DNA from: a virus
Length of the DNA stretch: 64,000 nt
IMG/VR virus record: IMGVR_UViG_3300046474_000239
Span: 1-64,000 of that record
Strand: one strand, 5' to 3'
Of this stretch, positions 27,513 to 40,202 are shown one piece after another. Each line of letters starts with the position of its first letter. Position 1 is the stretch's first letter. The position numbers and the translations under genes are program-made. The notes beneath the pieces were generated by a model. That model was not told the origin of the DNA. It was given only the letters and a program-made list of their open reading frames with translations, and searched no databases.

Positions 27513-27541
27513 TTGCGGGCGGAGGGAGCCTGGACTACATT
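27513..27541 (+). promoter_or_regulatory. Predicted promoter of the accessory region
   Basis: TTGCGG (27513-27518), 17 nt, TACATT (27536-27541). The upstream sequence TGTAGCTTGCGGGCGG is identical to that of the promoter at 33061, so it belongs to the same promoter family. Confidence 0.55.
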
Positions 27542-27824
27542 GAACTCACTAGGGGCGGTAGACCTGGGTTGCAGCAGCAGTTGGAAGTAGCAAGGTGATG
27601 TGCGTCGGGCAGGGCCTGACCTCCTGTCAACGCTTCGGCGGAGACCGGCAACCGTACCACCGGGGCAACCTGGGCTGGGAACAGAAGGTACGGAATTCTT
27701 TGGGATGCACGCGGCGCGGCATGGAAGTCACGGACCCGCGAGGGGCAGATGCCGATGGCGGACAACTCGTCGCGTTCATCCCAAAGGATTCAACCACAGG
27801 CCATCCCAGGCCAGGAGAGAAGCG
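27542..27824 (+). other. Long untranslated leader or small RNA with inverted repeat
   Basis: About 280 nt after the promoter and before the gene at 27825 carry no convincing gene. GAATTCTTTGGGATG (27693-27707) pairs with CATCCCAAAGGATTC (27777-27791) with a single G-T pair, enclosing a 69-nt GC-rich loop. It could be an independent small RNA or a structured leader. Small frames here (27595, 27600) have no ribosome-binding site. Confidence 0.45.
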
Positions 27825-28079
27825 ATGTCAGTAACGGCAAAGTTCAAAGGCGGCCCGCTCGACGGGCGGAAGAACACCCTCAAGGGTCGCGACAAACCAC
27901 CGGCCCAGTACAAGTGCGATGACGAGGCCAAGGCCCGTAACATGCGCGGCCACTACCGCCTGGTAACCAATACCGACAACGTGCTCACCGAGCCCGTCCA
28001 GTACGTCTGGGAAGGCCACCGGGTTGACGCAAACCATTGCACCCCGGAGACAGGCAAGTTCTGGCCTGCTACCGCCTAG
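27825..28079 (+). CDS. Small hypothetical protein
   Basis: 84 residues, basic (KFKGGPLDGRKNTLKGRDKPP, YVWEGHRVDANHCTPE). AGGAGAGAAGCG precedes the ATG. The GGPLDG-to-YVWEGHR layout resembles short phage proteins of unknown function. It lies behind the long leader at 27.5-27.8 kb. Confidence 0.7.
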   Translation: MSVTAKFKGGPLDGRKNTLKGRDKPPAQYKCDDEAKARNMRGHYRLVTNTDNVLTEPVQYVWEGHRVDANHCTPETGKFWPATA

Positions 28080-28083
28080 ACCT

Positions 28084-28340
28084 GTGTGGGCATGCGCGTT
28101 CCCCTATCTACTCCTGTGTGGGCACGCGCTTTCCCCTACTAGATTTACTCCAGTGTGGGCATGTGGTTTCCCCAACTACGAATCCGCTGGTGTCCAGCGC
28201 CAGGCCCGTGGCCCCGGTGTCCATGCCGGTGCTCCTGCCACTGATGATCGGGCTAGTGTCAGCGCTGCTGGTGTCCCGACCGGTGGTCATCCCGCTGGTG
28301 TCTATTAGTGCCAACACCTCTGAAGAGCCCGGTGTAGAGC
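28084..28340 (+). repeat. Noncoding repeat locus A (GTGTGGGCAYG and CTGGTGTC families)
   Basis: Three copies of GTGTGGGCAYG start at 28084, 28116 and 28153, each followed by a G/T-rich segment and TTCCCC. After them come at least six GGTGTC units (GCTGGTGTCC, CCGGTGTCC and similar). No gene is supported here. The same two repeat families make up locus B at 37.4-38.0 kb. Confidence 0.75.
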
Positions 28341-28361
28341 CTCCGGTGTCACCCCACTGAT

Positions 28362-28390
28362 TTGACCCGTCTCTGTCAGATTGTTATAAT
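28362..28390 (+). promoter_or_regulatory. Strong predicted sigma70 promoter
   Basis: TTGACC (28362-28367), 17 nt, consensus TATAAT (28385-28390). The best promoter in the window; it points into the accessory gene block. Confidence 0.8.
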
Positions 28391-28436
28391 TGCCCACACA
28401 CCCGCACCCACACACGCATCCAGAAGGAGCGAACCC

Positions 28437-28886
28437 GTGGACCCTAAGACTCAGTGGCGTCACAAAAGCAAGTTAAAAGAACTCGCCAAGATAGAACGCG
28501 GGATCCTGAAGTCTGTGCGTCGAGCGCAGCGCCAGGCTGATTTGATAGTACCCAAGGCGCTAGCCTGGATACCGATACCGTATGAAAAGCCGGAACCCAT
28601 AACGGCGGTTATCCTGGCGCGCCGGGCCTGGTATGAGGCGGGGGAAGTGCGGACCATTCCCGTTACTACCCTTTGCCGGGCGATTGCCCTTAATGAGGCG
28701 CAGAGACTGTTAAAGCGCGAAGGCTTCACGCACTGCACCGTGCTAGATGTTTATGAGGGACACCCCGCGTGCAATCAATTGCACCAGGATCTGTGTCGAT
28801 GGCGGGCGGTCAACCCCCGGCCTATAGTTGAATCACATTCAAGTCACCCACAAGGGGATAGCAAACATGAACACCGAAGCCCGTGA
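28437..28886 (+). CDS. Basic hypothetical protein, GTG start
   Basis: 149 residues beginning with GTG at 28437, 8 nt after AAGGAG and 46 nt after the strong promoter. The N-terminal half is Lys/Arg-rich (KSKLKELAKIERGILKSVRRAQRQ). A helical middle follows (LCRAIALNEAQRLLKREGFTHCTVLDVYEGH). The last 40 residues read through an inverted-repeat site and the next gene's promoter and start (20-nt overlap), so the tail is probably unconstrained. No known family; DNA or RNA binding is a guess from charge. Confidence 0.65.
   Translation: MDPKTQWRHKSKLKELAKIERGILKSVRRAQRQADLIVPKALAWIPIPYEKPEPITAVILARRAWYEAGEVRTIPVTTLCRAIALNEAQRLLKREGFTHCTVLDVYEGHPACNQLHQDLCRWRAVNPRPIVESHSSHPQGDSKHEHRSP
28769..28784 (+). 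repeat. Dispersed 16-bp inverted repeat, copy 7
   Basis: GTGCAATCAATTGCAC, in the 3' end of the GTG-start gene and 15 nt upstream of the next cassette promoter; read in frame as CNQLH. Confidence 0.92.
28799..28860 (+). promoter_or_regulatory. Accessory promoter-leader cassette
   Basis: ATGGCG (28799-28804), 18 nt, TATAGT (28823-28828), then the conserved leader CACCCACAAGGGGATA (28845-28860) containing the ribosome-binding site of the gene at 28867. Confidence 0.65.
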
Positions 28887-29034
28887 CACCCTGTTAGACC
28901 TTTATGCCGATTGGTTCACCAACTACCTGACCGTCGAGCATTACGCCTCGGTGAACGGCCTTACGGTAGCGCAAGCAAAGGTCCTCATTGACCTGGCCCG
29001 CGAAGTCACTAACAGTCCGCACCCTGAATCCTGA
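28867..29034 (+). CDS. Small helical protein, cassette-driven
   Basis: 55 residues (LLDLYADWFTNYLTVEHYASVNGLTVAQAKVLIDLARE), acidic and helical with a helix-turn-helix-like appearance. Such small proteins occur in accessory regions of other phages. AAGGGG of the conserved leader is its ribosome-binding site. Confidence 0.75.
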   Translation: MNTEARDTLLDLYADWFTNYLTVEHYASVNGLTVAQAKVLIDLAREVTNSPHPES

Positions 29035-29043
29035 TCACTGGCC

Positions 29044-29106
29044 CTGGCGCTTTGCCGGGGCTGGGCTATGCTCTTAATACACACCAAACGTCACCCACAA
29101 GGGGAT
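29044..29106 (+). promoter_or_regulatory. Accessory promoter-leader cassette
   Basis: CTGGCG (29044-29049), 17 nt, TATGCT (29067-29072), leader CACCCACAAGGGGATT at 29092. Drives the gene at 29113. Confidence 0.7.
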
Positions 29107-29112
29107 TGCACC

Positions 29113-29412
29113 ATGAAAACCATCGCCGACCTGAAACGCCGCGTAGTCGTTGGGACCTGGCTCAAGCTGGATGCCTACACCATCTCTGGCGTGCCCGCTT
29201 CGCACAAGTACATGAACATCCCCCGCCAGGTTTGCGCGGCTCAGACCAATAGCTTTGCCAGCAAGCCCGTGGACGATCCGCGCTTCCCGAAAGCCGAGGC
29301 CAGTTGGTGTGATTGGCCCAAGAAGGCCGAGTTTGTGCCGGACGATGACGGTGAAGGTTTCGCCGTGAACCATGGCCATATCCACCTGCACTACCGGATT
29401 GCATCCGCGTAG
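29113..29412 (+). CDS. Hypothetical protein, cassette-driven
   Basis: 99 residues. Beta-strand start (LKRRVVVGTWLKLDAY), then PASHKYMNIPRQVCAAQTNSFA and an aromatic, acidic end. Not recognised. The start at 29113 is fixed by the conserved AAGGGG leader; the longer frame from 29068 would translate the promoter. Confidence 0.7.
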   Translation: MKTIADLKRRVVVGTWLKLDAYTISGVPASHKYMNIPRQVCAAQTNSFASKPVDDPRFPKAEASWCDWPKKAEFVPDDDGEGFAVNHGHIHLHYRIASA

Positions 29413-29421
29413 CCACTGGAC

Positions 29422-29483
29422 CTGGCGCCTTTCGGGGCGCCTGCTATTCTCATGTTACACAAACCAATCACCCAGAAGGGGAT
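29422..29483 (+). promoter_or_regulatory. Accessory promoter-leader cassette
   Basis: CTGGCG (29422-29427), 17 nt, TATTCT (29445-29450), leader CACCCAGAAGGGGAT at 29469. The spacer contains GGCGCC...GGCGCC, which may also terminate upstream transcription. Confidence 0.7.
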
Positions 29484-29488
29484 CCGTG

Positions 29489-29866
29489 ATGTCGACCAAA
29501 CACAAGCCGTACACGAAAGACCAGACCAAGGCGATAGAGGCCGCGTGGTTCGCCCTCATGCGGGCGGTGGAATCCAACGCCATGCAGGAGCTGCGGCTCC
29601 GTGAAGCGTACAAGGCAGACCACAAGGACTTCGGCCCGGTGGCAACCCGCGCTCACATAATCGGTTACGTGCGCCAGGGTATGCGTATACCTGGACCGGC
29701 TACCATTCAGAACCTGGCGGCACAGCGTAACGAGATCGTCCACTGCTACATGGTTGGCCAGTGCCTCTTCTACAACCTGGACTACCCGCACAAGCTTACC
29801 GAGATCCTGGACGTGGCCGGTGATGCAGAGACCGAGGCGCAGGAAGCTTTCCTGAAAACCCTTTAA
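29489..29866 (+). CDS. Hypothetical protein, cassette-driven
   Basis: 125 residues, helical (AAWFALMRAVESNAMQELRLREAYK, YVRQGMRIPGPATIQNLAAQRNEIVHCYMVGQC). The charged N-terminus and regular helices suggest a small soluble protein. No family recognised. The start is set by the leader at 29469. Confidence 0.7.
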   Translation: MSTKHKPYTKDQTKAIEAAWFALMRAVESNAMQELRLREAYKADHKDFGPVATRAHIIGYVRQGMRIPGPATIQNLAAQRNEIVHCYMVGQCLFYNLDYPHKLTEILDVAGDAETEAQEAFLKTL

Positions 29867-29875
29867 CCGGTGGAC

Positions 29876-29935
29876 CTGGCGAGTTCGTCAGGCCCTGCTA
29901 TGCTTCCAATACACCCAAATCACCCTAAAGGGGAT
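29876..29935 (+). promoter_or_regulatory. Accessory promoter-leader cassette
   Basis: CTGGCG (29876-29881), 17 nt, TATGCT (29899-29904), leader CACCCTAAAGGGGAT at 29921. Confidence 0.7.
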
Positions 29936-29941
29936 TACGCA

Positions 29942-30787
29942 ATGACCACTAAAAAACCAGCCACCACCGACCTGGCCAAAGTCCTGGCCACCCTGCACGC
30001 CGCTAACGCGGACGGGGACGTAACCGCGTGTATCCTGGCAGCCAATGACGCGGAACACGCCGACAGCACCCAACGGCTGGCCTACTATCACCACCTGGGG
30101 CTCTTTCGTATCCGCGCCGAGCCAGATACCGATTACTCGTTTGCCGACCTGTGCGGGGACACGTACAACCCTGAAGCATGCCCGGATATTCCACCCGCAC
30201 AGCTCGCCAGAGAGAAGGCCACGTTTCGATCCCGTGTCAGCCGCCAGGGGGTGTGGGGTTTTGTCCTGGAAGTGCGCAAGTCGTCGGCGGATGCATGGGG
30301 CGTGCCCGGTGAACACCTCGACTCACTGTGGGGCAACGTCGGGGCTGACTTCGTCGGGTCCGGCTATGACCACGATTTTCTGGTAAACGCCCTGGACTGG
30401 CTCGAAGAAAACAAGGTTGTGGAGACTGACCCGCAAGCCAACCTCATTGCCGCCGCGAAGAAAGCCCTGTGTGGTATGCGGGCGCTGATCGCCCTGTACC
30501 CTGAGATGGCCGGTGACATCCAACCCTACTGCAAAAAACTCTTTGATGCTTTGGACCCGTACGACATGCCAGGCAGCATGGGCGTCAGTGTGCCCGGCAC
30601 GCTACCCGCGCCCGTCGAACCTTTGCTAGGCTTTGATGGGTTCGGGTTCAACCTGATAGCGGACCAGTACCGGGCTCGTGTTCTTACCCTGGATAAGGAG
30701 TTCAAACCCGGACACCCCCGCGAGTCAGAAGGCGCGGCGGTCCTGGCGGCCTTGTTTGCGTCAGGGGTAGCGACTAAAAACTACTAA
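29942..30787 (+). CDS. Hypothetical protein with DYSFADLCGDTYNPE motif
   Basis: 281 residues, acidic. The N-terminal helix is followed by an RAEPDTDYSFADLCGDTYNPEACPDIPP segment and a GVWGFVLEVRK-to-HLDSLWGNVGADF segment. This pair occurs, to my memory, in uncharacterised plasmid and phage proteins. The C-terminal part (CGMRALIALYPEMAGDIQPYC...) is helical and seems a separate module. No catalytic motif is evident. The longest cassette-driven gene with the one at 35842. Confidence 0.75.
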   Translation: MTTKKPATTDLAKVLATLHAANADGDVTACILAANDAEHADSTQRLAYYHHLGLFRIRAEPDTDYSFADLCGDTYNPEACPDIPPAQLAREKATFRSRVSRQGVWGFVLEVRKSSADAWGVPGEHLDSLWGNVGADFVGSGYDHDFLVNALDWLEENKVVETDPQANLIAAAKKALCGMRALIALYPEMAGDIQPYCKKLFDALDPYDMPGSMGVSVPGTLPAPVEPLLGFDGFGFNLIADQYRARVLTLDKEFKPGHPRESEGAAVLAALFASGVATKNY

Positions 30788-30801
30788 CCCACCCACCCAC
30801 A

Positions 30802-30821
30802 GGGGCGCCTAACAACGCCCC
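30802..30821 (+). promoter_or_regulatory. Leader hairpin GGGGCG/CGCCCC
   Basis: GGGGCG (30802-30807) pairs with CGCCCC (30816-30821), 21 nt before the start at 30843. The same stem appears before genes at 38857 and 40250. No T run follows, so it is a leader hairpin rather than a terminator. Confidence 0.5.
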
Positions 30822-30842
30822 ACAAGCTTTGCAGGGGGTTTT

Positions 30843-31064
30843 ATGTCGTGTCCTATGTATGTAGTCGAAGCACGCACGCCAGGCGGCGCGCTGGATCCTG
30901 GCGCGGAGCAACCGCCGTTTAACGTGGCGAGCGAGCGCCAGCTATTCGAGTATTACGGCGAACAAAGTGGGCGCATGGCCTACCAGGGTGACCAGGAGCA
31001 TTACCAGTTAGTGGTCGATTGGTATAAGAGCAAGGGCTGGGCAGTACGCCCGAAAACGTGGTAG
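30843..31064 (+). CDS. Small hypothetical protein
   Basis: 73 residues (MYVVEARTPGGALDPGAEQPPFNVAS, RQLFEYYGEQSGRMAYQGDQEHYQLVVDWYKSKGW). AGGGGG lies upstream. Unknown. Confidence 0.7.
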   Translation: MSCPMYVVEARTPGGALDPGAEQPPFNVASERQLFEYYGEQSGRMAYQGDQEHYQLVVDWYKSKGWAVRPKTW

Positions 31065-31075
31065 GGAGAGACGCC

Positions 31076-31339
31076 ATGTCAGTGGAAATCGTTCACGTCG
31101 TCCGGGGGCAATGCAAGATAACCGGGAAGAAATACAAGCTAGTGCGCGGACAGGTACGGCAACCCCACGAAGCCCGTGGAGAAGACGTGTTCCCCTCCAT
31201 CTTTTTCGCTATCCATTCAGCTAGCCGGGCGGCTAAGACCTGGCGTAAAATGTCGGACACTATCATTTTCACAGTCGTGCCCGTGAAGAGCATTGACGGT
31301 GAGTTAGTCGAAGAGGAGGAGGGTGATGAGTGCTCTTGA
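31076..31339 (+). CDS. Small hypothetical protein
   Basis: 87 residues with a basic start (VRGQCKITGKKYKLVRGQVRQ) and an acidic C-terminus (ELVEEEEGDEC). GAGAG precedes the ATG at 31076. It overlaps the next gene by 14 nt. Unknown. Confidence 0.65.
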   Translation: MSVEIVHVVRGQCKITGKKYKLVRGQVRQPHEARGEDVFPSIFFAIHSASRAAKTWRKMSDTIIFTVVPVKSIDGELVEEEEGDECS

Positions 31340-31523
31340 AGCCTTTGCGGCGTTCTATCGCGGCCTAAAGGCCGTTGCTTTGATTGTCCTGTTCTATTGC
31401 GTATGGAACCTGGATAACCATTTGAAGGAAAAATACCATGTACCTGGACAAGCCTCTGTTCAAGTTAAAGCCGGACGAACCGCGCCAGTATGCGAACGTA
31501 ACCAATGCCCTGGAGGTCACTGA
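31326..31523 (+). CDS. Possible small membrane protein overlapping the next gene
   Basis: 65 residues; GLKAVALIVLFYCVWNL is a good single transmembrane helix. GGAGG lies 6 nt before the ATG. The last 29 codons overlap the better-supported gene at 31438, so the C-terminal part may be unconstrained. Confidence 0.5.
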   Translation: MSALEAFAAFYRGLKAVALIVLFYCVWNLDNHLKEKYHVPGQASVQVKAGRTAPVCERNQCPGGH

Positions 31524-31731
31524 AAAGGGCTCCGCCTGGGTTCGCCACATCCAGGTCAGTACATCTCTGTTTCACCTGATGCGCCACCTCAAGGTTCCAG
31601 TGTCGGCGGCGGTGACTTTGTACCTGGACATTGAAGGACCCGTGGCGGTCTTCGGCCTGATGGTCGATGATCAAGACATGCACGACCTATGGGAGTACAG
31701 CAGCAAGCTACTACCACCATTCTTGGACTGA
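31438..31731 (+). CDS. Hypothetical protein
   Basis: 97 residues (PDEPRQYANVTNALEVTEKGSAWVRHIQVS, VPVSAAVTLYLDIEGPVAVFGLMVDD), beta-rich. GAAGGA precedes the start. Ends just before the next cassette promoter. Unknown. Confidence 0.7.
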   Translation: MYLDKPLFKLKPDEPRQYANVTNALEVTEKGSAWVRHIQVSTSLFHLMRHLKVPVSAAVTLYLDIEGPVAVFGLMVDDQDMHDLWEYSSKLLPPFLD

Positions 31732-31740
31732 CCGGTGGGC

Positions 31741-31799
31741 CTGGCGCGGAAGCCTGGGCCTGCTATAGTTGAGCTACTACCAATCACCCACAAGGGGAT
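31741..31799 (+). promoter_or_regulatory. Accessory promoter-leader cassette
   Basis: CTGGCG (31741-31746), 17 nt, TATAGT (31764-31769), leader CACCCACAAGGGGAT at 31785. Confidence 0.7.
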
Positions 31800-31805
31800 A
31801 GCCAG

Positions 31806-32291
31806 ATGAAAACCAAATACACCAAGCCCGTGTTGAGCGCAGACGGCCTGAGTGAGCTGGTACAGGCGAACGCCTGGAAACGCTACTACAACGGCGAGAC
31901 CTGTGCGCAATTCATCACTCGGGTCCTGGACCTGTGCAAAGCCCACACTCTGTCTTTCCAGTCCCACATCTCCGTGTCGGAAGAGCCTGGCGCCTGGGAA
32001 TACGACTACCTCACCCGTGGCTTCAGCGCTCCGCGCTTCACATTCGAGGAGTACCAGGCGAGGCGCTTGCCCTACGTCGGTGCCACTATCATCGCCCTGA
32101 ACTTCGACGACCTGTCTTGTGCATTCCACATGTACACCCGTGATGCCTCTGTTATCGAGGCGTTCCACCAAGCATTCGCCGACAACCCTGGCGCCGACGC
32201 AATCGCCGGTTACCGGGCAAACCTCAGTGCAGAGTTCGACCGTGACCGCAAACGCTTCGAGAAGCGCAAGGAGACCTCCAGTGGCTATTAA
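31806..32291 (+). CDS. Hypothetical protein, cassette-driven
   Basis: 161 residues. Helical N-terminus (GLSELVQANAWKRYYNGETCAQFITRVLDLC), beta middle (LPYVGATIIALNFDDLSCAF) and a charged C-terminal helix. Overlaps the next gene by 11 nt. Not recognised. Confidence 0.72.
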   Translation: MKTKYTKPVLSADGLSELVQANAWKRYYNGETCAQFITRVLDLCKAHTLSFQSHISVSEEPGAWEYDYLTRGFSAPRFTFEEYQARRLPYVGATIIALNFDDLSCAFHMYTRDASVIEAFHQAFADNPGADAIAGYRANLSAEFDRDRKRFEKRKETSSGY

Positions 32292-32643
32292 CCCACAACC
32301 TGTGCGTGTGTTCACCCGCGAGGATCCGTGTACGAAGGTGCACCTGTTTAATTGCTTTACAGCACCGTCAGGCTTTCGCCCCCGCGCAGTCGTCGAGGCC
32401 CGTGGCGAGATCGGTATCAACGCGATCAAGTACCTGCTCCGTGAAGGGTACGCCGAGGCCTTCGAAGGTGCCGGGGCGGATTGGTGGAAGCTGACCGAGG
32501 AGGGCGAGCAATGGCTCCTTGTGGGACTACAGCGGCACCTCGAATTACACCCCGAGGAGCGCTCTCTGGTAGCGGGCAACGCCCCGGCTAAGCGCAAGTC
32601 AGGACACCAGGGCGACAGGGTTATACGGCGCACACGTCGGTGA
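32281..32643 (+). CDS. Winged-helix-like protein with C-terminal RRTRR tag, GTG start
   Basis: 120 residues. AAGGAG is 7 nt before the GTG at 32281. Residues about 45-85 (INAIKYLLREGYAEAFEGAGADWWKLTEEGEQWL) look like a winged helix. The C-terminus, DRVIRRTRR, is a terminal copy of the basic tag found on other proteins here. The upstream in-frame part (32119) overlaps the previous gene and is rejected. Function unknown; DNA binding is plausible. Confidence 0.65.
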   Translation: MAINPQPVRVFTREDPCTKVHLFNCFTAPSGFRPRAVVEARGEIGINAIKYLLREGYAEAFEGAGADWWKLTEEGEQWLLVGLQRHLELHPEERSLVAGNAPAKRKSGHQGDRVIRRTRR

Positions 32644-32651
32644 TTGTCGTC

Positions 32652-32676
32652 ATTATGGTATGAAAGCCCCCATAAT
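32652..32676 (+). promoter_or_regulatory. Small inverted repeat in intergenic region
   Basis: ATTATGG (32652-32658) and CCATAAT (32670-32676) can form a hairpin between the winged-helix gene and the inverted-repeat site at 32715. AT-rich compared with its surroundings; operator or leader hairpin. Confidence 0.35.
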
Positions 32677-32714
32677 CTGCGAAAGCTTGCAAGAAATCGG
32701 CTTTTGCACAGCGC

Positions 32715-32730
32715 GTGCAATCAATTGCAC
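32715..32730 (+). repeat. Dispersed 16-bp inverted repeat, copy 8
   Basis: GTGCAATCAATTGCAC, directly before AGGAG of the gene at 32745. Confidence 0.92.
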
Positions 32731-32744
32731 CAGGAGTCAGTGAG

Positions 32745-33059
32745 ATGAAACGTAAAGAAAACGGCGTCACCACTTTACAGGCCCGTAACGGTCAAAACGT
32801 CGTCGCTTTCGACGCCATCGCCAAGCTCTCTGGAGTATCGGGCGGGGGCGTTGTCAAGGTCCTGGCAGCAATGCGCGCCATTGCAGATTATGAGGGCGAC
32901 CAGGCACTAGCGAGCGGCCTGGGGGCGTTCGAGAATGTTCCGACAGGGTTAGCGGATGAATACCGCGCACGCGCTACAGCGGCCTACGCGCATGACCTGG
33001 CCGAAGCATTGGAAGGCCACGAGCTGGCGCCGATCTTGCGCCTGGACCGATTGGTGTAG
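32745..33059 (+). CDS. Hypothetical protein
   Basis: 104 residues, helical, Ala-rich (FDAIAKLSGVSGGGVVKVLAAMRAIADYEGD). The SGVSGGGVVKVLAAM segment resembles a recognition helix pair. AGGAG lies 8 nt before the ATG. Its 3' end abuts the promoter at 33061. Confidence 0.7.
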   Translation: MKRKENGVTTLQARNGQNVVAFDAIAKLSGVSGGGVVKVLAAMRAIADYEGDQALASGLGAFENVPTGLADEYRARATAAYAHDLAEALEGHELAPILRLDRLV

Positions 33060-33060
33060 C

Positions 33061-33122
33061 TTGCGGGCGGTCGTAGGCCTGCTATTCTCTTAATACACAC
33101 CAAACGTCACCCATAAGGGGAT
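33061..33122 (+). promoter_or_regulatory. Accessory promoter-leader cassette
   Basis: TTGCGG (33061-33066), 16 nt, TATTCT (33083-33088), leader CACCCATAAGGGGAT at 33108. Confidence 0.7.
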
Positions 33123-33127
33123 GCACC

Positions 33128-33781
33128 ATGGTCACCAAAAAGTTTACCTGCAAGGTCAGTGAGGAGCACGGCTTCCTCGGTTGGGTCATGAATACCATGC
33201 CCCACTTCGACCCGGCCACCGGCATGGGTGTAGCCCATGATTGCCTGGAACACTTGACCCGTCGCGTAGGCTTTGAAGGCGAAATGGAGGCCTTCGGTGT
33301 CGCGCTGTTCATCCGCTACGGCGGCGGGTACTGGACAGAACGTGGCGCCTACGACTCCTCGTGGAGCGGCAACACTTGCACCGAAGTCGCGGAGTTCCTG
33401 GCCCGTGATACAGACATGACCGTGGCTAAGGCCCCGCGCACCCCTTTGCTGGAGGACGGTGAAGAGGAAGAGATCGCCAAGATGCAGACCAGGGCACTGG
33501 AGGACTTCTATTCTGAGTGGGCGGATAGCTACGGCCTAGAGGACACGCCCCGTGAAGTCGTAAGCCTGGCGCTCGAACGGGCGGCTGTCTGGATCCGTCG
33601 CGGATTCCGTAACGCAGAACGCAAGTACACCGCACCCGTGTACGACCTGGCGTACATGTTTGCGCAGATAGAGAAAGAAGTAGACGCGCTAAACCCGGAA
33701 GAGGGCGACACCCTCACTGTCAAATTCAGTCGCGATGAATGCGACTATTCTGTAACACACAAACGTCAATACGACTGGTAA
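33128..33781 (+). CDS. Hypothetical protein, cassette-driven
   Basis: 217 residues, acidic. Segment VSEEHGFLGWVMNTMPHFDPATGMGVAHDCLEHL carries His and Asp/Glu residues in a GVAHDCLEH pattern that could bind metal. The C-terminal helix region (ALERAAVWIRRGFRNAERKY) is separate. I know no enzyme family for it. The start is fixed by the leader at 33108. Confidence 0.75.
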   Translation: MVTKKFTCKVSEEHGFLGWVMNTMPHFDPATGMGVAHDCLEHLTRRVGFEGEMEAFGVALFIRYGGGYWTERGAYDSSWSGNTCTEVAEFLARDTDMTVAKAPRTPLLEDGEEEEIAKMQTRALEDFYSEWADSYGLEDTPREVVSLALERAAVWIRRGFRNAERKYTAPVYDLAYMFAQIEKEVDALNPEEGDTLTVKFSRDECDYSVTHKRQYDW

Positions 33782-33793
33782 AGGAGTAACACC

Positions 33794-34132
33794 ATGCAAA
33801 AAGTTGGAATCTTGAGCCGTATGGGTCTCGGTGCTCTCTTGGGCTCCGCCCTGGCGCACAGCCTGATGCAAGGCGTGCAATCAATTGCATCGACAGGCCC
33901 GCGACAGCATCGCGTAGCACCTAACATCACCCGCCAGCGTTGGTACAGTGGTCGACATGACCATAAGTCAGGCAAGAAACCTGGCCAGACTGATGCACAA
34001 GCGTCACAAGCCCTGGCAACTGCGCAAGCTAAGCGGGCGCGCAAGGCCGCAGCCCTCACCCGTTGGGCGGAGCGTAGCGCCGAAGGTGCGCAAGCCTGGC
34101 GCCAGGCTTTGACGGGCGGAGCCACCTACTAA
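33794..34132 (+). CDS. Small basic protein with hydrophobic N-terminus
   Basis: 112 residues. The N-terminal MGLGALLGSALAHSLMQG may be a membrane or export segment. The rest is Ala/Arg/Gln-rich (ATAQAKRARKAAALTRWAERSAEGAQAWRQAL). An inverted-repeat site lies inside the gene and is read as VQSIA. GGAG precedes the start. Confidence 0.65.
   Translation: MQKVGILSRMGLGALLGSALAHSLMQGVQSIASTGPRQHRVAPNITRQRWYSGRHDHKSGKKPGQTDAQASQALATAQAKRARKAAALTRWAERSAEGAQAWRQALTGGATY
33875..33890 (+). repeat. Dispersed 16-bp inverted repeat, copy 9 (intragenic)
   Basis: GTGCAATCAATTGCAT, one mismatch in the last base; inside the gene at 33794 and read as VQSIA. Confidence 0.85.
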
Positions 34133-34149
34133 CCCCAAACCACCTACAG

Positions 34150-34168
34150 AGGCCCGAAAGGGCCTTTG
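34150..34168 (+). terminator. Possible terminator hairpin
   Basis: AGGCCC (34150-34155), GAAA loop, GGGCCT (34160-34165), then TTG. Stable stem but a short T run. Confidence 0.5.
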
Positions 34169-34250
34169 TCAGTGTAACTAGCGCCGTTTAATGGGCGTGC
34201 TAATATTCAATTGTACCCCGGCAAACGTCATCCCCAAGGAGACAAGCACC

Positions 34251-34646
34251 ATGCGCGCTACCTGTGCAACCATCGCATCGCTGATGCAGATCAAAGACGT
34301 GACTGAAGACGACGCCCGTCTGATCCGCAAAATCTGGCCTATGTCTATTTCCCAAATGCGCACCTACCTGGCACGCCCGGCTGTGAACCTCGAAGGCCGC
34401 TTCGATTACGTCCTGGAAACCTGCAAAGGATCCACCAACCTGGTGGAAGGGGCGGTCGACCGCATCATTGGCACCCATGGCGTGGAATACCTGGGCCAGC
34501 GCAAGCGCAACCGGAACCACGTCTACTACTGCAATGCCGGTGACACCTACAGCACCACTATCATTTTCGACGGCGACCGCCTCACCGTGGGCTGTATCGG
34601 TGACCTGGTTGAAAAGAACCTCATCTCTGAACGCGGGAGCTTCTAA
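34251..34646 (+). CDS. Hypothetical protein
   Basis: 131 residues. N-terminal helical part (IASLMQIKDVTEDDARLIRKIWPM), then VLETCKGSTNLVEGAVDRIIGTHGVEYLG and beta strands (YYCNAGDTYSTTIIFDGDRLTVG). A diverged leader (ATCCCCAAGGAGAC) precedes it. The GTHGVEYLG-to-YYCNAGDTY layout is that of a phage small protein I have seen but cannot name. Confidence 0.75.
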   Translation: MRATCATIASLMQIKDVTEDDARLIRKIWPMSISQMRTYLARPAVNLEGRFDYVLETCKGSTNLVEGAVDRIIGTHGVEYLGQRKRNRNHVYYCNAGDTYSTTIIFDGDRLTVGCIGDLVEKNLISERGSF

Positions 34647-34647
34647 C

Positions 34648-35391
34648 ATGGCAAAGTCAAAAGCGGATTACATTGAGCAAGGCCGGGCGGATGCAGCAGC
34701 CGGTGGCGCACGCAAGATTGGCTTTACCCGTAACTCGTGGCAGGAAAACGCCTATGACCTGGGCTTTAACGCGGAGTACAAACGTCAGGTATCTTGCCCA
34801 GCCTGTGCGGCCGGTGTGCCTCTCGCTGCTCCGGTGCTCGCCAAGGTTGTCGGTGGCCCGGACGACGGGAAGGTCGTACAGCTCACTGCAAAGGCTGTGC
34901 AAGCGATTACACGCACGGCGGGCGAAACGCTGGACGCTGGACGCCAGGCACACGCCGCACAGGTCACACGCATGGCGACGGAACATCGCCGGGCGGATCG
35001 TATCGACAGAATGACCCGTGGCTACATCGCAGCAGCACTGGGGAGCAGTGGCGGGACCACACCAGAAGGCGAGGAGCTGGAAAGTCTGGAGGGCTACGAG
35101 TTCAGTGATGAGTCGAAGTCGAAAGCCTGGGGCATTTGCGCGGCCTTCTATGACCGCTACACGACAGACGTTAATGCCTACGCTGGCACGTACAAGCCTG
35201 GCAATGGTGCGGATCCTTACGAGCACGCCGGTCACGACCTGTGGCTCACCTCCGGCGGTCACGGTGTAGGCTTCTGGGATCGCGGCCTGGGCAACCTCGG
35301 TGATCGACTGAGCAAGGCGTGCGGCTTCCGCACAGACTTCCCGGAGAAGTGGGTAGACATTGGTGATGATCACTACGTCCACCTGGACTGA
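34648..35391 (+). CDS. Two-domain hypothetical protein with AGHDLWLTSGGHGVGFWDRG motif
   Basis: 247 residues. Residues 1-45 (ADYIEQGRADAAAGG...WQENAYDLGFNAEYKRQ) weakly recall ribosome-modulation-factor-like motifs in phage proteins. A CPAC pair and an Ala/Arg-rich helix follow. The C-terminal 90 residues (AAFYDRYTTDVNAYA..., HAGHDLWLTSGGHGVGFWDRGLG) form a conserved-looking domain known to me from other phages without function. It begins 1 nt after the previous stop. Confidence 0.75.
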   Translation: MAKSKADYIEQGRADAAAGGARKIGFTRNSWQENAYDLGFNAEYKRQVSCPACAAGVPLAAPVLAKVVGGPDDGKVVQLTAKAVQAITRTAGETLDAGRQAHAAQVTRMATEHRRADRIDRMTRGYIAAALGSSGGTTPEGEELESLEGYEFSDESKSKAWGICAAFYDRYTTDVNAYAGTYKPGNGADPYEHAGHDLWLTSGGHGVGFWDRGLGNLGDRLSKACGFRTDFPEKWVDIGDDHYVHLD

Positions 35392-35406
35392 TGCAATCAA
35401 TTGCAC
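35391..35406 (+). repeat. Dispersed 16-bp inverted repeat, copy 10
   Basis: ATGCAATCAATTGCAC, overlapping the TGA of the preceding gene. A GGCGC/GCGCC hairpin (35407-35426) follows at once. Confidence 0.92.
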
Positions 35407-35443
35407 GGCGCTCGAAACCGGGCGCCTTTGAGGAGTTAACGCC

Positions 35444-35761
35444 ATGTCTAACGACAGCACACAAAAAGCCATTGTAAACGCCCGCCAGGCCCTGGCAGAC
35501 CTTTACGCAGATGCCTGCATAGCCCTGGAAGCTACGGTATCAAAGGAGCGGGTACAGGCTGTTATAGAGAAGCGCACAGACCAGGCTGGCGCGGCTGAAG
35601 CCGGGGCGGAGCTGGCCTTTGCTTGCCTCATTGCAGCGCAGAAGCGTAGCAAGCCTTCGGGGGTTGAACTCACAACCGAAACCGAAAGCAACGCGGGCGG
35701 GTACTACAGTCGAAAGGCAGTAGGGCAAATGATTCGCCGGATCCGCGACAATATGCCCTAG
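35444..35761 (+). CDS. Hypothetical protein
   Basis: 105 residues, Ala-rich helices (ARQALADLYADACIALEATVSKERVQAVIEKRTD) and a basic end (RKAVGQMIRRIRDNMP). GAGGAG lies 9 nt upstream. Unknown. Confidence 0.68.
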   Translation: MSNDSTQKAIVNARQALADLYADACIALEATVSKERVQAVIEKRTDQAGAAEAGAELAFACLIAAQKRSKPSGVELTTETESNAGGYYSRKAVGQMIRRIRDNMP

Positions 35762-35776
35762 CCTGGGTCGGTGTAC

Positions 35777-35837
35777 ATGGCGCTCCTTAGATGGGGCGTC
35801 TATGCTTCCAATACACCCAAATCACCCACAAGGGGAT
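35777..35837 (+). promoter_or_regulatory. Accessory promoter-leader cassette
   Basis: ATGGCG (35777-35782), 18 nt, TATGCT (35801-35806), leader CACCCACAAGGGGAT at 35823. Confidence 0.65.
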
Positions 35838-35841
35838 AGAC

Positions 35842-36687
35842 ATGCAAACCATTCTTTCAACGTCGCAAATTGAGACACGCCTCGGTGACATTTACAGCAC
35901 CGCGTACATCACCAAGCCCACCAGTGCCGAGTTGCACGAGCGCCTGAATAACTTCCTGGCGGAGTTGTGCGAACGCACGCCGGGCGGTCGTCGTCGTTAC
36001 AGCGTGGAAACAATCGGATACGCCCGTGGTTATGCCCGTGCCCTGGACAACCAAATCATGCGCGAGCAAGTGGAGTTTGTTTACCGCTCTTTGCACAGCG
36101 GGTATATCTATTCGACTCACAAGCAAAGCACCCACAAGTCCACTGAAGAGTTCTACGAGAAGGGCGAGGGTGCATTGTTGGGCGAGATGGAAGCCGCGCA
36201 CGTATGGAAAGGCACCGACAAACCGTTTACCCCGTGGAGCGTACCAAACCAGGACATGCGCGACCGCCAGGCTGTGGCATTGGCTAAGTCGGATTCCCGT
36301 TATAGCGTCCAGAGTTACGGCCTGGCGTTTAATGGCAAGGGCTGGGCCTTCCTGTGGCTCGATAAGGTTATGGGAAGCGCGGACACCGAAGCGGCGGCCT
36401 GGCTTCTGGCGGCAAAGCATAAGGCAGAACGTGACGCCAGTTTGAGCGACCCGGTAGCGCAAGGCTGGAAACCCACCAACGCCGAAACCCTGGCGGAGGT
36501 TCAACGTGTCGTCGCTGCTATCGGGCGGGACACCCTGGTCGCTGATGTTTATGATGAGCGCTCACAGGTATCAGATGCCCTGGCCCGTGTACCAGGCTTT
36601 GAATACCCGGACTGGTCACACCTGACAATGGGCGAGGCGGAGACCCGTGCTCGCAAGATCCTGGGGGGCGATAATGGCAAAGGCTAA
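35842..36687 (+). CDS. Hypothetical protein, cassette-driven
   Basis: 281 residues, mixed charge. ERTPGGRRRYSVETIGYARGYARAL, KGTDKPFTPWSVPNQDMRDRQ and WAFLWLDKVMGSADTEAAAWLLAAKHK are its most ordered parts. Acidic C-terminus. No family recognised. Overlaps the next small gene by 14 nt. Confidence 0.72.
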   Translation: MQTILSTSQIETRLGDIYSTAYITKPTSAELHERLNNFLAELCERTPGGRRRYSVETIGYARGYARALDNQIMREQVEFVYRSLHSGYIYSTHKQSTHKSTEEFYEKGEGALLGEMEAAHVWKGTDKPFTPWSVPNQDMRDRQAVALAKSDSRYSVQSYGLAFNGKGWAFLWLDKVMGSADTEAAAWLLAAKHKAERDASLSDPVAQGWKPTNAETLAEVQRVVAAIGRDTLVADVYDERSQVSDALARVPGFEYPDWSHLTMGEAETRARKILGGDNGKG

Positions 36688-36838
36688 GAAGCGGGTAAAC
36701 ATTGATCGTGTGGAGCCGGGCGGTAATGTCGTCCGGTACATGACTGGAGTAGAAGAGGAGAACGCACACCGAATCATCCGTGACGTGAATCAAAGGGAAG
36801 GGGAGTTGGTCATATCCTCTGTACCGTACAAGCGCTAG
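36674..36838 (+). CDS. Small basic hypothetical protein
   Basis: 54 residues (KAKKRVNIDRVEPGGNVVRYMTGVEEENAHRI). GGGGG upstream. Starts within the 3' end of the previous gene. Unknown. Confidence 0.6.
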   Translation: MAKAKKRVNIDRVEPGGNVVRYMTGVEEENAHRIIRDVNQREGELVISSVPYKR

Positions 36839-36875
36839 ACTAGGATCCACACAAACCAGCAAAGGAGTTACCAGG

Positions 36876-37001
36876 ATGAAAGCGATAACACTCGTGGCAC
36901 GTAAACTGATGCTAGCCATTTACGGGCGGCCAGTTGAACCAACGGCAGAAGAGAAGGAGAAGGAGCAGAAGGAATACGAGCGAGTGTTGTCTATCCTCTA
37001 G
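36876..37001 (+). CDS. Very small hypothetical protein (41 aa)
   Basis: Begins at an ATG 10 nt after AAAGGAG and ends in TAG at 36999-37001. A basic hydrophobic helix (AITLVARKLMLAIYGRP) is followed by a Glu/Lys helix (AEEKEKEQKEYERVLSIL). The clear ribosome-binding site and amphipathic layout support a real gene; a membrane-anchored or regulatory peptide is possible. Confidence 0.55.
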   Translation: MKAITLVARKLMLAIYGRPVEPTAEEKEKEQKEYERVLSIL

Positions 37002-37006
37002 ACCTC

Positions 37007-37022
37007 GTGCAATCAATTGCAC
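37007..37022 (+). repeat. Dispersed 16-bp inverted repeat, copy 11
   Basis: GTGCAATCAATTGCAC, at the start of the noncoding region after the 41-codon gene. Confidence 0.92.
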
Positions 37023-37039
37023 CGACTCACCCATTAATC

Positions 37040-37066
37040 GCCCTGGCTTAATCGCCGGGGCTTTCT
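37040..37066 (+). terminator. Possible terminator
   Basis: GCCCTGGC (37040-37047) pairs with GCCGGGGC (37054-37061) with one T-G pair, followed by TTTCTC. It closes the accessory block before the repeat-rich noncoding region. Confidence 0.55.
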
Positions 37067-37380
37067 CGTTTCGGGCGGAGCAGATACCAGGATCCTCTAT
37101 AGGGAACAATCCACTATCACCAGGTACACACGCCAGGATAAAACGGGCGGACACTCTACACACACCTATAGACAATCCCACTAGGGAACATAGAACACAC
37201 CAGGACCATAGCAAAGGTTTAGACGGGCGGATCCTGTAGAGTTTCGGGCGGACCAATATGCAATACCCTATAGACAATAACCATAGAGAGAATCATATAG
37301 AGATAAACAGTGTAGAGAACCGATCTAGTGTTTCATTCTCTATCAGTGTTTTCCCAGTGAACTATTTCCCGCAAAAATTC
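37067..37380 (+). other. Noncoding stretch with CTATAG and GGGCGGA motifs
   Basis: No gene is supported. CTATAGGGAAC or CTATAGACAAT occurs at about 37097, 37165 and 37267. CGGGCGGA or GGGCGGAC occurs four times (about 37073, 37144, 37223, 37246). The segment 37250-37400 is distinctly AT-richer than its surroundings. Confidence 0.5.
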
Positions 37381-38010
37381 TCTGGTGATTCAAGTTCAAT
37401 TCATCGGTGTCTATCCGTGTCTAGTGCTGCTGGTGCTTGGGTTAGTGTCTACGTCACGCTAACTGGTGCTGCTGTACGCTGCTGTCATGCTAATGCAGGC
37501 CCGTTTGTGTTATCAGCAGTAGTGGTGGAGTTAATGTTCTCTCTATAGGGGATAAATGACATCGACCGCCCGTAAACCCTGGGTACATGTTTATTCTCTC
37601 TATAGGGAGCAAGTGACATCCCGCCCGTGTTTATTGGTTCTGTGTGGGCATGCCGCATTCATAACTGGTCACTGCTGGTGTTTCCTCTCTATAGGGCGTA
37701 ACTGGTATCCGCCCGTGCAATTGATTGCACTGGTGTGGGCATGTGACGCTTACTACTGTCGTCACTGCTGGTGTGGGCACCTGGTTTATACAACTGGTGA
37801 GTGGTGGTGGTCATGCGCGTTTCATGACTGCTGCTGGTGACGCAACTGGTGCTGGTGTCATAACTGGTGCAACTGGTGTCACTGCTGCTGGTGTCATGAG
37901 TGGTGGTGGAATTCTCTCTATAGGGCTGTGGTGGTATTCCGCCTGTGAAACCTGTGCCTGTGTGGGCATGTGCTATTTACTACTGAAGTCACTGCTGCTG
38001 TAGTTGTCCT
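37380..38010 (+). repeat. Noncoding repeat locus B (CTCTCTATAGGG, GTGTGGGCAYG and CTGGTG families)
   Basis: Four CTCTCTATAGGG copies (ending near 37550, 37607, 37696 and 37925) are each followed after about 7 nt by TGACATC/TGGTATC and CCGCCYGT. Four GTGTGGGCAYG copies start at 37642, 37733, 37771 and 37960. More than a dozen CTGGTG units lie among them. The frames here (37258, 37556, 37725) have repeat-driven composition and no ribosome-binding sites, so I treat the region as noncoding. Confidence 0.75.
37715..37730 (-). repeat. Dispersed 16-bp inverted repeat, copy 12 (reverse)
   Basis: GTGCAATTGATTGCAC, inside repeat locus B. Confidence 0.92.
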
Positions 38011-38016
38011 GGCGCC

Positions 38017-38032
38017 GTGCAATTGATTGCAC
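38017..38032 (-). repeat. Dispersed 16-bp inverted repeat, copy 13 (reverse)
   Basis: GTGCAATTGATTGCAC, at the 3' edge of repeat locus B. Confidence 0.92.
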
Positions 38033-38059
38033 CGACCTGGATCCGTGTTACACCGCTCC

Positions 38060-38118
38060 GAAGCACGTCAAATGCGTGCCAGAATCGAGCTGAAGCACGG
38101 CAAATACGTGCCAGATAC
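38060..38118 (+). promoter_or_regulatory. Tandem operator-like repeats GCACG-N7-CGTGC
   Basis: Two 27-nt direct repeats (38060-38086 and 38092-38118, period 32 nt) each contain GCACG, 7 nt, CGTGC. They lie about 70 nt upstream of a predicted promoter at 38188, so they could be two adjacent dimer sites about three helical turns apart. Confidence 0.5.
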
Positions 38119-38157
38119 ACCCCGGATCCGCGCCTATATAGAAGGGCTTCGAAACCG

Positions 38158-38215
38158 CACCGTTTGTCGGCTCCGACCAAATCAGGTTTGCAGGTTCGCC
38201 AGCACCGTCTAAAGT
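38158..38215 (+). promoter_or_regulatory. Predicted promoter within a duplicated segment
   Basis: ACCGTTTGTCGGCTCCGA (38158-38175) and GGTTTGCAGG are duplicated at 39566-39611. TTGCAG (38188-38193), 16 nt, TAAAGT (38210-38215) would drive the 27-codon gene at 38257. Confidence 0.45.
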
Positions 38216-38256
38216 TACCAATACCGAAACACAAACCACACACAAGGAATACCGAC

Positions 38257-38340
38257 ATGACCACCATTCAGATGTTCACCGGCATTGCAGTAATGGCTAT
38301 GATCGTTTTCGCAATGGCCTACGCAGCTTGGAACAACTAA
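38257..38340 (+). CDS. Very small membrane protein (27 aa)
   Basis: The ATG follows CAAGGAA by about 7 nt. The product (FTGIAVMAMIVFAMAYAAW core) is a single transmembrane helix with short ends and stops with TAA at 38338-38340. Similar tiny membrane proteins are common in phage early regions. The upstream in-frame sequence is operator DNA, not coding. Confidence 0.55.
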   Translation: MTTIQMFTGIAVMAMIVFAMAYAAWNN

Positions 38341-38360
38341 CAGTTAACCGCAGCCCACGT

Positions 38361-38375
38361 CACCCATAAGGGGAT
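38361..38375 (+). promoter_or_regulatory. Conserved accessory leader
   Basis: CACCCATAAGGGGAT before the gene at 38382. No promoter hexamers of the cassette type are visible, so this copy may only set translation. Confidence 0.6.
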
Positions 38376-38381
38376 CGAATC

Positions 38382-38540
38382 ATGAACGCAGTAGCTCACT
38401 ACCTCGTATACTCGAAAAACACCGGCTTCATTGTTGCGAAGTTCACAACCGAGGCGGGAGCTATAGAGTACTGCGCAAACAACGCCGGAACCCGTTGGAC
38501 CTATCACCGCACCGATAAAGCCGTGCCATACGGCTGCTAA
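38382..38540 (+). CDS. Small hypothetical protein (52 aa)
   Basis: Starts at the ATG after the conserved AAGGGG leader and ends at TAA 38538-38540. Sequence runs AVAHYLVYSKNTGFIVAKF, EAGAIEYCANNAGTRWTYHRTD. A beta-alpha-beta miniature fold seems possible. Unknown. Confidence 0.65.
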   Translation: MNAVAHYLVYSKNTGFIVAKFTTEAGAIEYCANNAGTRWTYHRTDKAVPYGC

Positions 38541-38560
38541 TCCAATCAATCGCCACACGT

Positions 38561-38575
38561 TACCCATAAGGGGAC
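38561..38575 (+). promoter_or_regulatory. Conserved accessory leader
   Basis: TACCCATAAGGGGAC, two differences from the consensus, before the gene at 38581. Confidence 0.55.
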
Positions 38576-38580
38576 AGATC

Positions 38581-38799
38581 ATGACCACAGTAAACACTCC
38601 CGAAGGCATATCGTATTTTCGTTTCGCCTCACTCAAAGGCCAACTCAAACTTGAGTCGGTAGGCCTGAAAAGTTCTAGCGGCGCACTCCGCCCACAACTT
38701 GCGAAAGAGTTCGGCCTTAAACCCCGCGCACCACACGCCGACTACATCGCCTATTGCATTGCGCGCATGAATGAATTGATCCCGCGCCAAGTTGTATAA
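38581..38799 (+). CDS. Small hypothetical protein
   Basis: 72 residues, basic (FRFASLKGQLKLESVGLKSSSGALRPQLAKEFGLKPRAPHADYIAYCIARM). The leader at 38561 supplies its ribosome-binding site. Its last base is the first of an inverted-repeat site. Unknown. Confidence 0.7.
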   Translation: MTTVNTPEGISYFRFASLKGQLKLESVGLKSSSGALRPQLAKEFGLKPRAPHADYIAYCIARMNELIPRQVV

Positions 38800-38814
38800 T
38801 GCAATTGATTGCAC
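38799..38814 (-). repeat. Dispersed 16-bp inverted repeat, copy 14 (reverse)
   Basis: ATGCAATTGATTGCAC, overlapping the TAA of the preceding gene; a GGGGCG-GAAA-CGCCCC hairpin follows at the next base. Confidence 0.92.
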
Positions 38815-38830
38815 GGGGCGGAAACGCCCC
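38815..38830 (+). promoter_or_regulatory. Leader hairpin GGGGCG-GAAA-CGCCCC
   Basis: A 6-bp GC stem with a GNRA tetraloop, adjacent to an inverted-repeat site and 26 nt before the start at 38857. Confidence 0.6.
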
Positions 38831-38856
38831 ACACCCAAACTAGTAGAGTGACCATC

Positions 38857-39516
38857 ATGTCTAATGCACCTTATGACAAAGTTGACGCGGCCTATATCTT
38901 TATCGGGTTGCACGCTTCTTATACTAACGCGGCCAATGAGGAGGAGAGCGACAACGGACCTATTGCGCAGTTGATTGAACACCACAGCGGAGAATGCCAT
39001 TTAATGGCTTTCATGTTCGAGACTTCCATTGCCGCAAGTAAGGCGATTAGTTCAATAGTTGACTTTGACCGGGCGGACCTCGGGATGTTCGCCTATGACC
39101 ATCTCGACAACGCAGAGCCGGGAAGCCTGATCTATGCCCTATGGTCGGCGTGCGTACTTGAGCAGAAGGACCCCGCAGGCGTAGTTAAAGCGTGGGTTGA
39201 TGCAATGGGCTGGCCTACGATAGTCAAAGGGCGGGAAGTAGTTCAAGTAGTAGACTCCCCGGTAGTTAGTATTCAGATTCAAACCGTCCAGATTCAACCA
39301 CGCGACCAAACCGGCGACGATGCGCAGGTAGTAGCTAGCACTAGCCCCAATGCAACCCATTGGTCTGTATATACGCGCAGTACCGAAGGGCGGGCGCAAT
39401 GGGTTGCGGATTTTGCCGTATTGCCCGGCGATACCGGACAGGCCCGCACCGCCGCGCAGATGCTTGCGGACAAGCTTGCAGCACAGTACGGGGTATTTAT
39501 CGAAGCCATTAAGTAG
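38857..39516 (+). CDS. Hypothetical protein, less GC-rich codons
   Basis: 219 residues, acidic. N-terminal helical half (AAYIFIGLHASYTNAANEEES, AFMFETSIAASKAISSIVDFD) and a C-terminal half with Val/Gln repeats (VVSIQIQTVQIQPRD). Codons such as ATT, AGT and TTA are more frequent than in core genes, suggesting separate acquisition. A terminator follows. Unknown function. Confidence 0.7.
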   Translation: MSNAPYDKVDAAYIFIGLHASYTNAANEEESDNGPIAQLIEHHSGECHLMAFMFETSIAASKAISSIVDFDRADLGMFAYDHLDNAEPGSLIYALWSACVLEQKDPAGVVKAWVDAMGWPTIVKGREVVQVVDSPVVSIQIQTVQIQPRDQTGDDAQVVASTSPNATHWSVYTRSTEGRAQWVADFAVLPGDTGQARTAAQMLADKLAAQYGVFIEAIK

Positions 39517-39536
39517 AACGCCCCGCACGCACGTTT

Positions 39537-39557
39537 AAGGCCCTTCGGGGCCTTTTT
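39537..39557 (+). terminator. Rho-independent terminator with TTCG loop
   Basis: AAGGCCC, TTCG, GGGCC and TTTTT. Confidence 0.9.
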
Positions 39558-39565
39558 CGTTTATG

Positions 39566-39680
39566 ACCGTTTGTCGGCTCCGATCAAAATAGTTAGATTC
39601 TGGTTTGCAGGATTTGTGATAGCAACTATTCTCTAAATACCGGGTAAGGCAACCGCCGCCCACATCACCCATAAGGGGAT
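39566..39680 (+). promoter_or_regulatory. Promoter and conserved leader in duplicated segment
   Basis: CCGTTTGTCGGCTCCGA repeats the segment at 38159. TTGCAG (39605-39610), 16 nt, TATTCT (39627-39632) is followed by the leader CACCCATAAGGGGAT at 39666. It drives the histone-like gene at 39686. Confidence 0.65.
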
Positions 39681-39685
39681 ACATC

Positions 39686-40186
39686 ATGGCTACCACCACC
39701 CACGCACAAGCTACCAAACCAGCTAAAAAAGCAGCCGCCAAGAAAGCAGCCGCGCCTAAAACCGCAGCCGCTAAAACCGCGCCAGCCAAGAAGGCCGCCA
39801 AGAAAGCAGCCGCGCCAAAAGCGATTGTCCGCCCTACCATCGCCTACACGATCACCAATCGCCCGTCGAGCGGGGTTGTATTGTTCGCCTATACAGAGGC
39901 CGCCCTTGAGCTGCTAGGGATGCAGGAAGGCGTTGCAGTACCGGCCAGCACCATTAAAAAAGTAATGGGCGCTACAGCATTGCGCTACCACCTCGACAAA
40001 CAAACCTTTGCCCAAGATGATAGCGGCAAAGTTACTTTGACCAATGCAGGCAAAGCGTTTTTTGCAGAACGCAAAGTCAAAGCGCAAGCGGACCATGTCG
40101 AGCTGTTTAAAAACATGATGATTACCGGGACCATCGCCGGGGACCTGTACAAGAATGACGACCAAGTCGTAGCCATTAAGGCCTAA
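39686..40186 (+). CDS. Histone H1-like Lys/Ala-rich N-terminus with conserved C-terminal domain
   Basis: 166 residues. Residues 8-45 are KPAKKAAAKKAAAPKT-type repeats like bacterial and eukaryotic H1 tails. The rest (IAYTITNRPSSGVVLFAYTEAALELLG, ALRYHLDKQTFAQDDSGKVTLTNAGKAFF) is a compact domain known to me only from phage proteins. A nucleoid- or phage-DNA-binding role is inferred from charge. Own promoter and leader. It should be well expressed early if the cassettes are early promoters. Confidence 0.78.
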   Translation: MATTTHAQATKPAKKAAAKKAAAPKTAAAKTAPAKKAAKKAAAPKAIVRPTIAYTITNRPSSGVVLFAYTEAALELLGMQEGVAVPASTIKKVMGATALRYHLDKQTFAQDDSGKVTLTNAGKAFFAERKVKAQADHVELFKNMMITGTIAGDLYKNDDQVVAIKA

Positions 40187-40202
40187 CAGTAAGGACCGGG
40201 GC

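Follow-up and report, generated by a model that had tools for sequence, protein, structure and literature searches.

Two conserved noncoding loci with a shared 25-nt element in a Samunavirus-like phage, one of them a possible replication-control locus

Phage SPP1 has two replication origins, of which one lies in its initiator gene and the other in a long stretch between genes (PMC6316719, PMC3485210). Other points of comparison are the λ ori/O system, the iteron origins of plasmids (PMC4980987) and the PeSLs of T4-type phages (Arbiol et al. 2010), promoter-terminator units that lie at many places and tie repeated regulatory DNA to exchangeable genes (as cited in PMC4503421 and PMC4177764). For Samunavirus-like Pseudomonas phages, whose isolates come from sewage and clinical samples, the literature that we found describes neither an origin nor another replication-control site.

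The phage studied here is an IMG/VR record of 104,448 bases. Because its ends overlap by 127 bases, the genome is taken to be a circle of about 104,321 bp, with some 142 called genes that run rightward in nearly every case, a single weak call excepted. The window is the first 64,000 nucleotides of the record. The DNA polymerase, a PolA that includes a uracil-DNA glycosylase domain, shares 64% identity with its counterparts in the Pseudomonas Samunavirus phages SM1, PaMx31, UF_RH6, FBPa45 and PA_L9. A nearer relative is the 94.9-kb IMG/VR contig G009, with about 65–79% identity across most aligned DNA. The loci were compared in three lineages: the studied phage, G009 and Samunavirus (SM1). The BHU-1 phage record was left out since its intergenic DNA appears to be trimmed to 0 or 100 nt. 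Contig L020 (74 kb) was rejected as a relative, its RNR being 79% identical with little else in common and the repeat element absent; so was the match in L098, a filamentous-phage-like sequence carrying an unrelated repeat with GTGTGGGCACG inside.

Two noncoding loci of this genome, A and B, are real, conserved, cis-acting DNA. They differ in kind, A consisting of a fixed set of three 25-nt elements and B of a noncoding locus of 1.25 kb. We propose tentatively, at a probability of roughly 0.4, that B is a replication-control locus laid out as a bidirectional origin and that A and B share a protein-bound control element. Judged from sequence, no other single explanation does as well as a part for B in replication control, the main rival being a purely transcriptional role.

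Several traits recall oriL and oriR of SPP1. A candidate origin-like region is in the initiator gene and a second is in a long locus between genes, with transcription signals at its borders, direct repeats and an AT-rich element; an initiator candidate, a DnaB-type helicase, a recombinase and a resolvase-like protein are phage-coded, and a relative is circularly permuted. However, the SPP1 origins share initiator boxes whereas the two candidates here share no repeat, and B adds a mirror-image layout and a CTG array. With λ ori/O and the iteron origins the phage has in common a winged-helix initiator candidate and direct repeats of about 17–25 nt near an AT-rich stretch, but its elements are spaced more widely than typical plasmid iterons (32–37 nt apart at A in the three lineages, 38–189 nt at B here), and B can lack them altogether, as in G009. 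Like the PeSLs, A and B are repeated regulatory DNA linked to exchangeable genes; unlike the PeSLs, their repeat vocabulary is limited to the two loci, to which SM1 and UF_RH6 add a noncoding stretch with the same vocabulary rightward of B.

Anatomy and conservation of the two loci

An alignment of 15 copies across the compared lineages defines the 25-nt element as GTGTGGGCA-N13-ACT. The spacer varies in sequence and keeps its length of 13 nt in 14 of the 15 copies. There are two forms, A-type TTCCCCTACTA and B-type TTTACTACTG. The element is probably a binding site for one phage-encoded DNA-binding protein. The features of both loci are collected in Table 1.

Table 1. Features of loci A and B, in window coordinates
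Feature	Position	Strand	Description
Locus A	28080..28361	+	noncoding; three tandem 25-nt elements, then a CTGGTG/GTGTC-rich stretch
Element A1	28084..28108	+	GTGTGGGCATG..., A-type; ATC at the ACT position
Element A2	28116..28140	+	GTGTGGGCACG...ACT
Element A3	28153..28177	+	GTGTGGGCATG...ACT
Near-consensus sigma-70 promoter	28362..28390	+	TTGACC-17-TATAAT, 11/12; best of the genome in the same scan
Locus B	37002..38256	.	largest noncoding stretch of the genome
Intrinsic terminator hairpin	37040..37061	+	left edge of B
B left half	37067..37340	-	reversed vocabulary: CACCAG, CGGGCGG, CCCTATAGA
B core	37341..37405	.	AT-rich; 86% identity to G009; GCAAAAATT also in SM1; motif polarity switches here
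B right half	37405..38016	+	CTGSTG array, 23 units on + and 1 on -; TCTCTATAGGG and the 25-nt element, four copies of each
Element B1	37642..37666	+	
Element B2	37733..37757	+	
Element B3	37771..37795	+	GTGTGGGCACC
Element B4	37960..37984	+	copy also matching SM1 B, 85% over 40 nt
Two GCACG-N7-CGTGC inverted repeats	38063..38111	.	right edge of B

The sequence-only reading that drew attention to this region held that A and B share a repeat vocabulary, and the counts bear this out. The word GTGTGGGCAYG has six exact copies in the window against 0.11 expected by chance, and no shuffle reached six. Three are in A (at 28084, 28116 and 28153) and three in B (at 37642, 37733 and 37960), with a further B copy at 37771 (GTGTGGGCACC) that has one mismatch; the copy numbers of three and four given earlier are right if this last one is counted. 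None lies outside A and B across the 104-kb genome. CTGGTG/CTGCTG on the + strand is densest at B (16 in 300 nt), and a second cluster overlaps A (4 in 300 nt). A word missing from the earlier list, TCTCTATAGGG, has four exact copies, all within B. It was considered as a promoter for a T7-like phage RNA polymerase and set aside; RNA_pol found no match in this genome, but the control genomes were likewise without any match, so such a polymerase need not be lacking. Locus B, put at 37.4–38.0 kb, is larger than that, and the two loci do flank a stretch of small genes, about 18 in 28.4–37.0 kb.

Both loci keep their syntenic positions, A at 66.9–67.2 kb in G009 and 63.7–64.0 kb in SM1, B at 73.5–74.0 kb and 71.6–72.3 kb, respectively. 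In SM1, PaMx31, UF_RH6, FBPa45 and PA_L9 both are present at the same positions; the Samunavirus records do not annotate them as features and show blank sequence or small hypothetical ORFs. Locus A begins its elements right after the stop of the gene at 27825–28079, is 73% identical to G009 over 141 nt and 76% to SM1 over 103 nt, and has exactly three elements in each of the three lineages. At B there are four elements here, while G009 has none and SM1 has one, with another in a separate noncoding stretch at 73.1 kb; the element is thus not a constant part of B. The identity of the B core to G009 exceeds that of most aligned coding DNA, and the core forms the AT-richest 300-nt window of this genome and the second-ranked one in G009 and SM1. 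A similar hairpin with a T-run, judged by eye, stands at the left edge of B in G009 and SM1, and inverted repeats like those of the right edge occur in SM1 (at 73177) and UF_RH6. A scan with the B core matched G009 alone in viral_contigs and nothing in genome_contigs. The triple-element pattern had 36 matches in genome_contigs, none with the title of a Samunavirus-like phage, and these are taken as unrelated.

The earlier suggestion that A and B are two copies of a regulatory RNA now seems scarcely credible. The right half of B folds somewhat better than shuffles (z −2.6), which is expected from its internal repeats, but the fold of A is near chance (z −1.36), pair covariation is weak, and no Rfam family matches A or B at either threshold. 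Just upstream of A, at 27540–27810, lies a possible structured RNA, unannotated, with a folding z of −2.9. Its SM1 counterpart is at about 54.5–54.85 kb, and the stem differs on both sides, CCGTACC/GGTACGG versus GGCCACC/GGTGGCC; Rfam gave no match for it and no counterpart was found in G009.

A role of A or B as a packaging (pac) site is highly improbable. Circular permutation in the relative UF_RH6 would fit headful packaging (PMC10281142), but the sole large-terminase-like gene found, at 11954–13879 after the gene of an HTH protein, is 14–25 kb from A and B, which makes a pac site there unlikely. UF_RH6 does have annotated terminase subunits beside A, within its positions 31000–46000, but the labels sit on tail-fibre-like proteins, whose SM1 counterparts match tail-fibre families.

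Polarity at locus B and the initiator gene

Motif orientation flips at the core of B in all three lineages, from CAG-rich on the left to CTG-rich on the right. The CTG:CAG counts to the left and right of the core are 1:6 and 38:3 here, 2:4 and 16:2 in G009, and 0:5 and 31:0 in SM1. When the right half is reverse-complemented, 44 of its 8-mers also occur in the left half, against 4.5 expected and with none of 300 shuffles reaching that number; SM1 has a similar excess of inverted shared words at B, and G009 has none between its halves. Here and in SM1, composition switches from AC to GT more strongly at the core of B than anywhere else in the genome; in G009 the switch at B ranks fourth. The largest CTG–CAG switch of this phage is at 89.9 kb, tied with one within the right half of B.

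These halves bear on the main rival, in which A and B are transcription-control hubs of the early region, the element and TATAGGG boxes are activator or repressor sites of the promoters downstream, and replication starts elsewhere, within the initiator gene as in λ. We regard it as a serious reading, though on the unlikely side. A near-consensus sigma-70 promoter ends A, preceding the gene that starts at 28437; a terminator opens B; and in SM1 and UF_RH6 a TATATAGGG box lies, by eye, between plausible −35 and −10 boxes right before a gene. The λ-like ori candidate in the initiator gene, described below, would also fit. However, a promoter of equal strength was not found in the same scan at A in G009 or SM1, and 1 kb of DNA that includes a reversed left half and a conserved AT-rich core goes far beyond what a promoter needs. 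Since all but one weak call run rightward, there is no gene on which the mirror-image left half could act.

The replication genes lie elsewhere in the genome, with a DnaB helicase, PolA and a TOPRIM primase encoded at 96.9–103.1 kb. Just upstream of this group, in three of three lineages, is the gene of a 449-aa protein, which we regard as the initiator candidate, as its predicted fold and gene order fit. Its N-terminal domain is predicted to be a winged helix (pLDDT 83.7), and only this domain was used because the full-length model is of low confidence. Viral structure matches include the N-terminal part of λ O and models of phage replication initiators, with E-values of 0.004 to 0.08; against solved structures the matches of the winged helix were generic and none was significant, and the 449-aa sequence matched no solved structure. 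In G009 and SM1 the linker of this gene, a region of low model confidence, contains a tandem direct repeat. A hairpin is present in all three lineages, and both arms of its stem differ among them, AGAGGTATTACATACCTCT here, AGAGCTATTACATAGCTCT in G009 and AGAGATACTACGTATCTCT in SM1. The gene of this phage has G-runs and the hairpin only (genome positions 95436–95545), the repeats being clearer in the other two. These repeats and the hairpin are a candidate for a rival, λ-like ori, and no repeat is common to it and A/B besides a genome-wide palindrome. In record IMGVR_UViG_3300042009_000032 the initiator gene is interrupted, with no single frame, perhaps through an assembly frameshift.

Given this ori-like element in the gene of the initiator, a second origin or a fork-control site, comparable to SPP1 oriR, is the likelier role for B. 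Paired origins, as once suggested for A and B, are half retained: B is origin-like, but A is not, the genome-wide skews lend no support, and the other ori-like element is in the initiator gene. Genome-wide GC skew is not significant as an origin test, and the genome-wide change point of third-codon skew, likewise not significant, gives no origin support at B. Skew enters, too, into a very unlikely reading of B as a termination or fork-arrest region opposite an origin in the initiator gene. B is 39–46 kb from that gene, almost halfway round the circle, and the detrended GC skew of SM1 peaks at B and is lowest close to the initiator gene; yet this skew is not significant, is not repeated in the other genomes, and B has the local polarity of an origin rather than of a terminus.

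If B is a replication-control locus, as we prefer, its observed anatomy suggests how it would work. The terminator would shield B on the left side, the conserved AT-rich core would melt, and the CTG-rich units, which resemble primer starts, would run outward from it on both prospective templates of the lagging strand. The same protein, through the three-element array of A upstream of the early genes, would act on early transcription, A preceding a strong sigma-70 promoter in this genome. The anatomy, the conservation, the polarity switch and the cassette indels are observed; that a protein binds the elements, that B acts as an origin and that A and B divide the work in this way is inferred.

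Gene gain and loss around the loci

B is also a site of small-gene gain and loss among closely related phages, as read among Samunaviruses that are 98–99% identical. Relative to SM1, UF_RH6 has an extra 0.9 kb or so, with two genes; the repeat vocabulary stands on either side of the insert, and 53 nt of flank are duplicated, whereas SM1 has the vocabulary only once at this place. This is the one clear case of a gene indel bounded by repeat copies in close relatives. FBPa45 and PaMx31 have about 420 extra nt immediately left of B.

Gene content between A and B varies as well, 9 of the 18 genes having homologues in G009 and 9 of 18 in SM1, so that the loci are not kept around an invariant block. 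In the stretch right of B (37–48 kb), only 6 of 25 genes have homologues in G009 and 1 of 25 in SM1, and A and B therefore do not bound the most variable unit. The proposal that a hypervariable block has recombined at its ends is partly supported, by the cassette indels in and beside B, but the block from A to B is not the unit of variation.

It is doubtful that the repeats are mainly recombination substrates by which early-gene cassettes are exchanged through homologous recombination, in the manner of T4-type PeSLs. The UF_RH6 gene pair with vocabulary on both sides and the extra DNA left of B in FBPa45 and PaMx31 fit such exchange, as do the UvsX-like recombinase and exonuclease that the phage encodes; moreover, the genes touching A and B have no homologue in G009 or SM1, except the gene left of A. 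But few phages show a cassette gain, and any locus with repeats might give rise to one incidentally; to the right of B, genes vary without the repeats; and the conserved spacing, core and position suggest selection on function rather than on exchange.

Other repeated sequences were noticed as well. A near-identical leader, ACCCAYAAGGGGA, stands right before the start codons of many small early genes (at 28847, 29094, 31787, 33110, 35825, 38363, 38563 and 39668). GGATCC is unusually dense at 28.5–38.2 kb, where 13 of its 28 genome sites fall in less than 10 kb. The palindrome TGCAATYRATTGCA has 31 copies in the genome, 23 of them in the window (746 to 63804), mostly in short gaps near gene starts. 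In SM1, sites of this type are occupied by another palindrome, GCAARCGYTTGC, with about 30 copies, as if a dispersed operator had changed its sequence genome-wide.

It is tempting to combine replication and gene turnover, with B as a replication origin whose elements double as a landing pad for early-gene cassettes through recombination between elements. We think this improbable; if true, gene turnover in this phage group would be physically tied to a replication-control site. A and B are exact targets for mapping replication and early-gene exchange in these phages. If B is a second origin, the two-origin scheme of the SPP1 type would extend to a phage group with Gram-negative hosts and a polymerase of its own.
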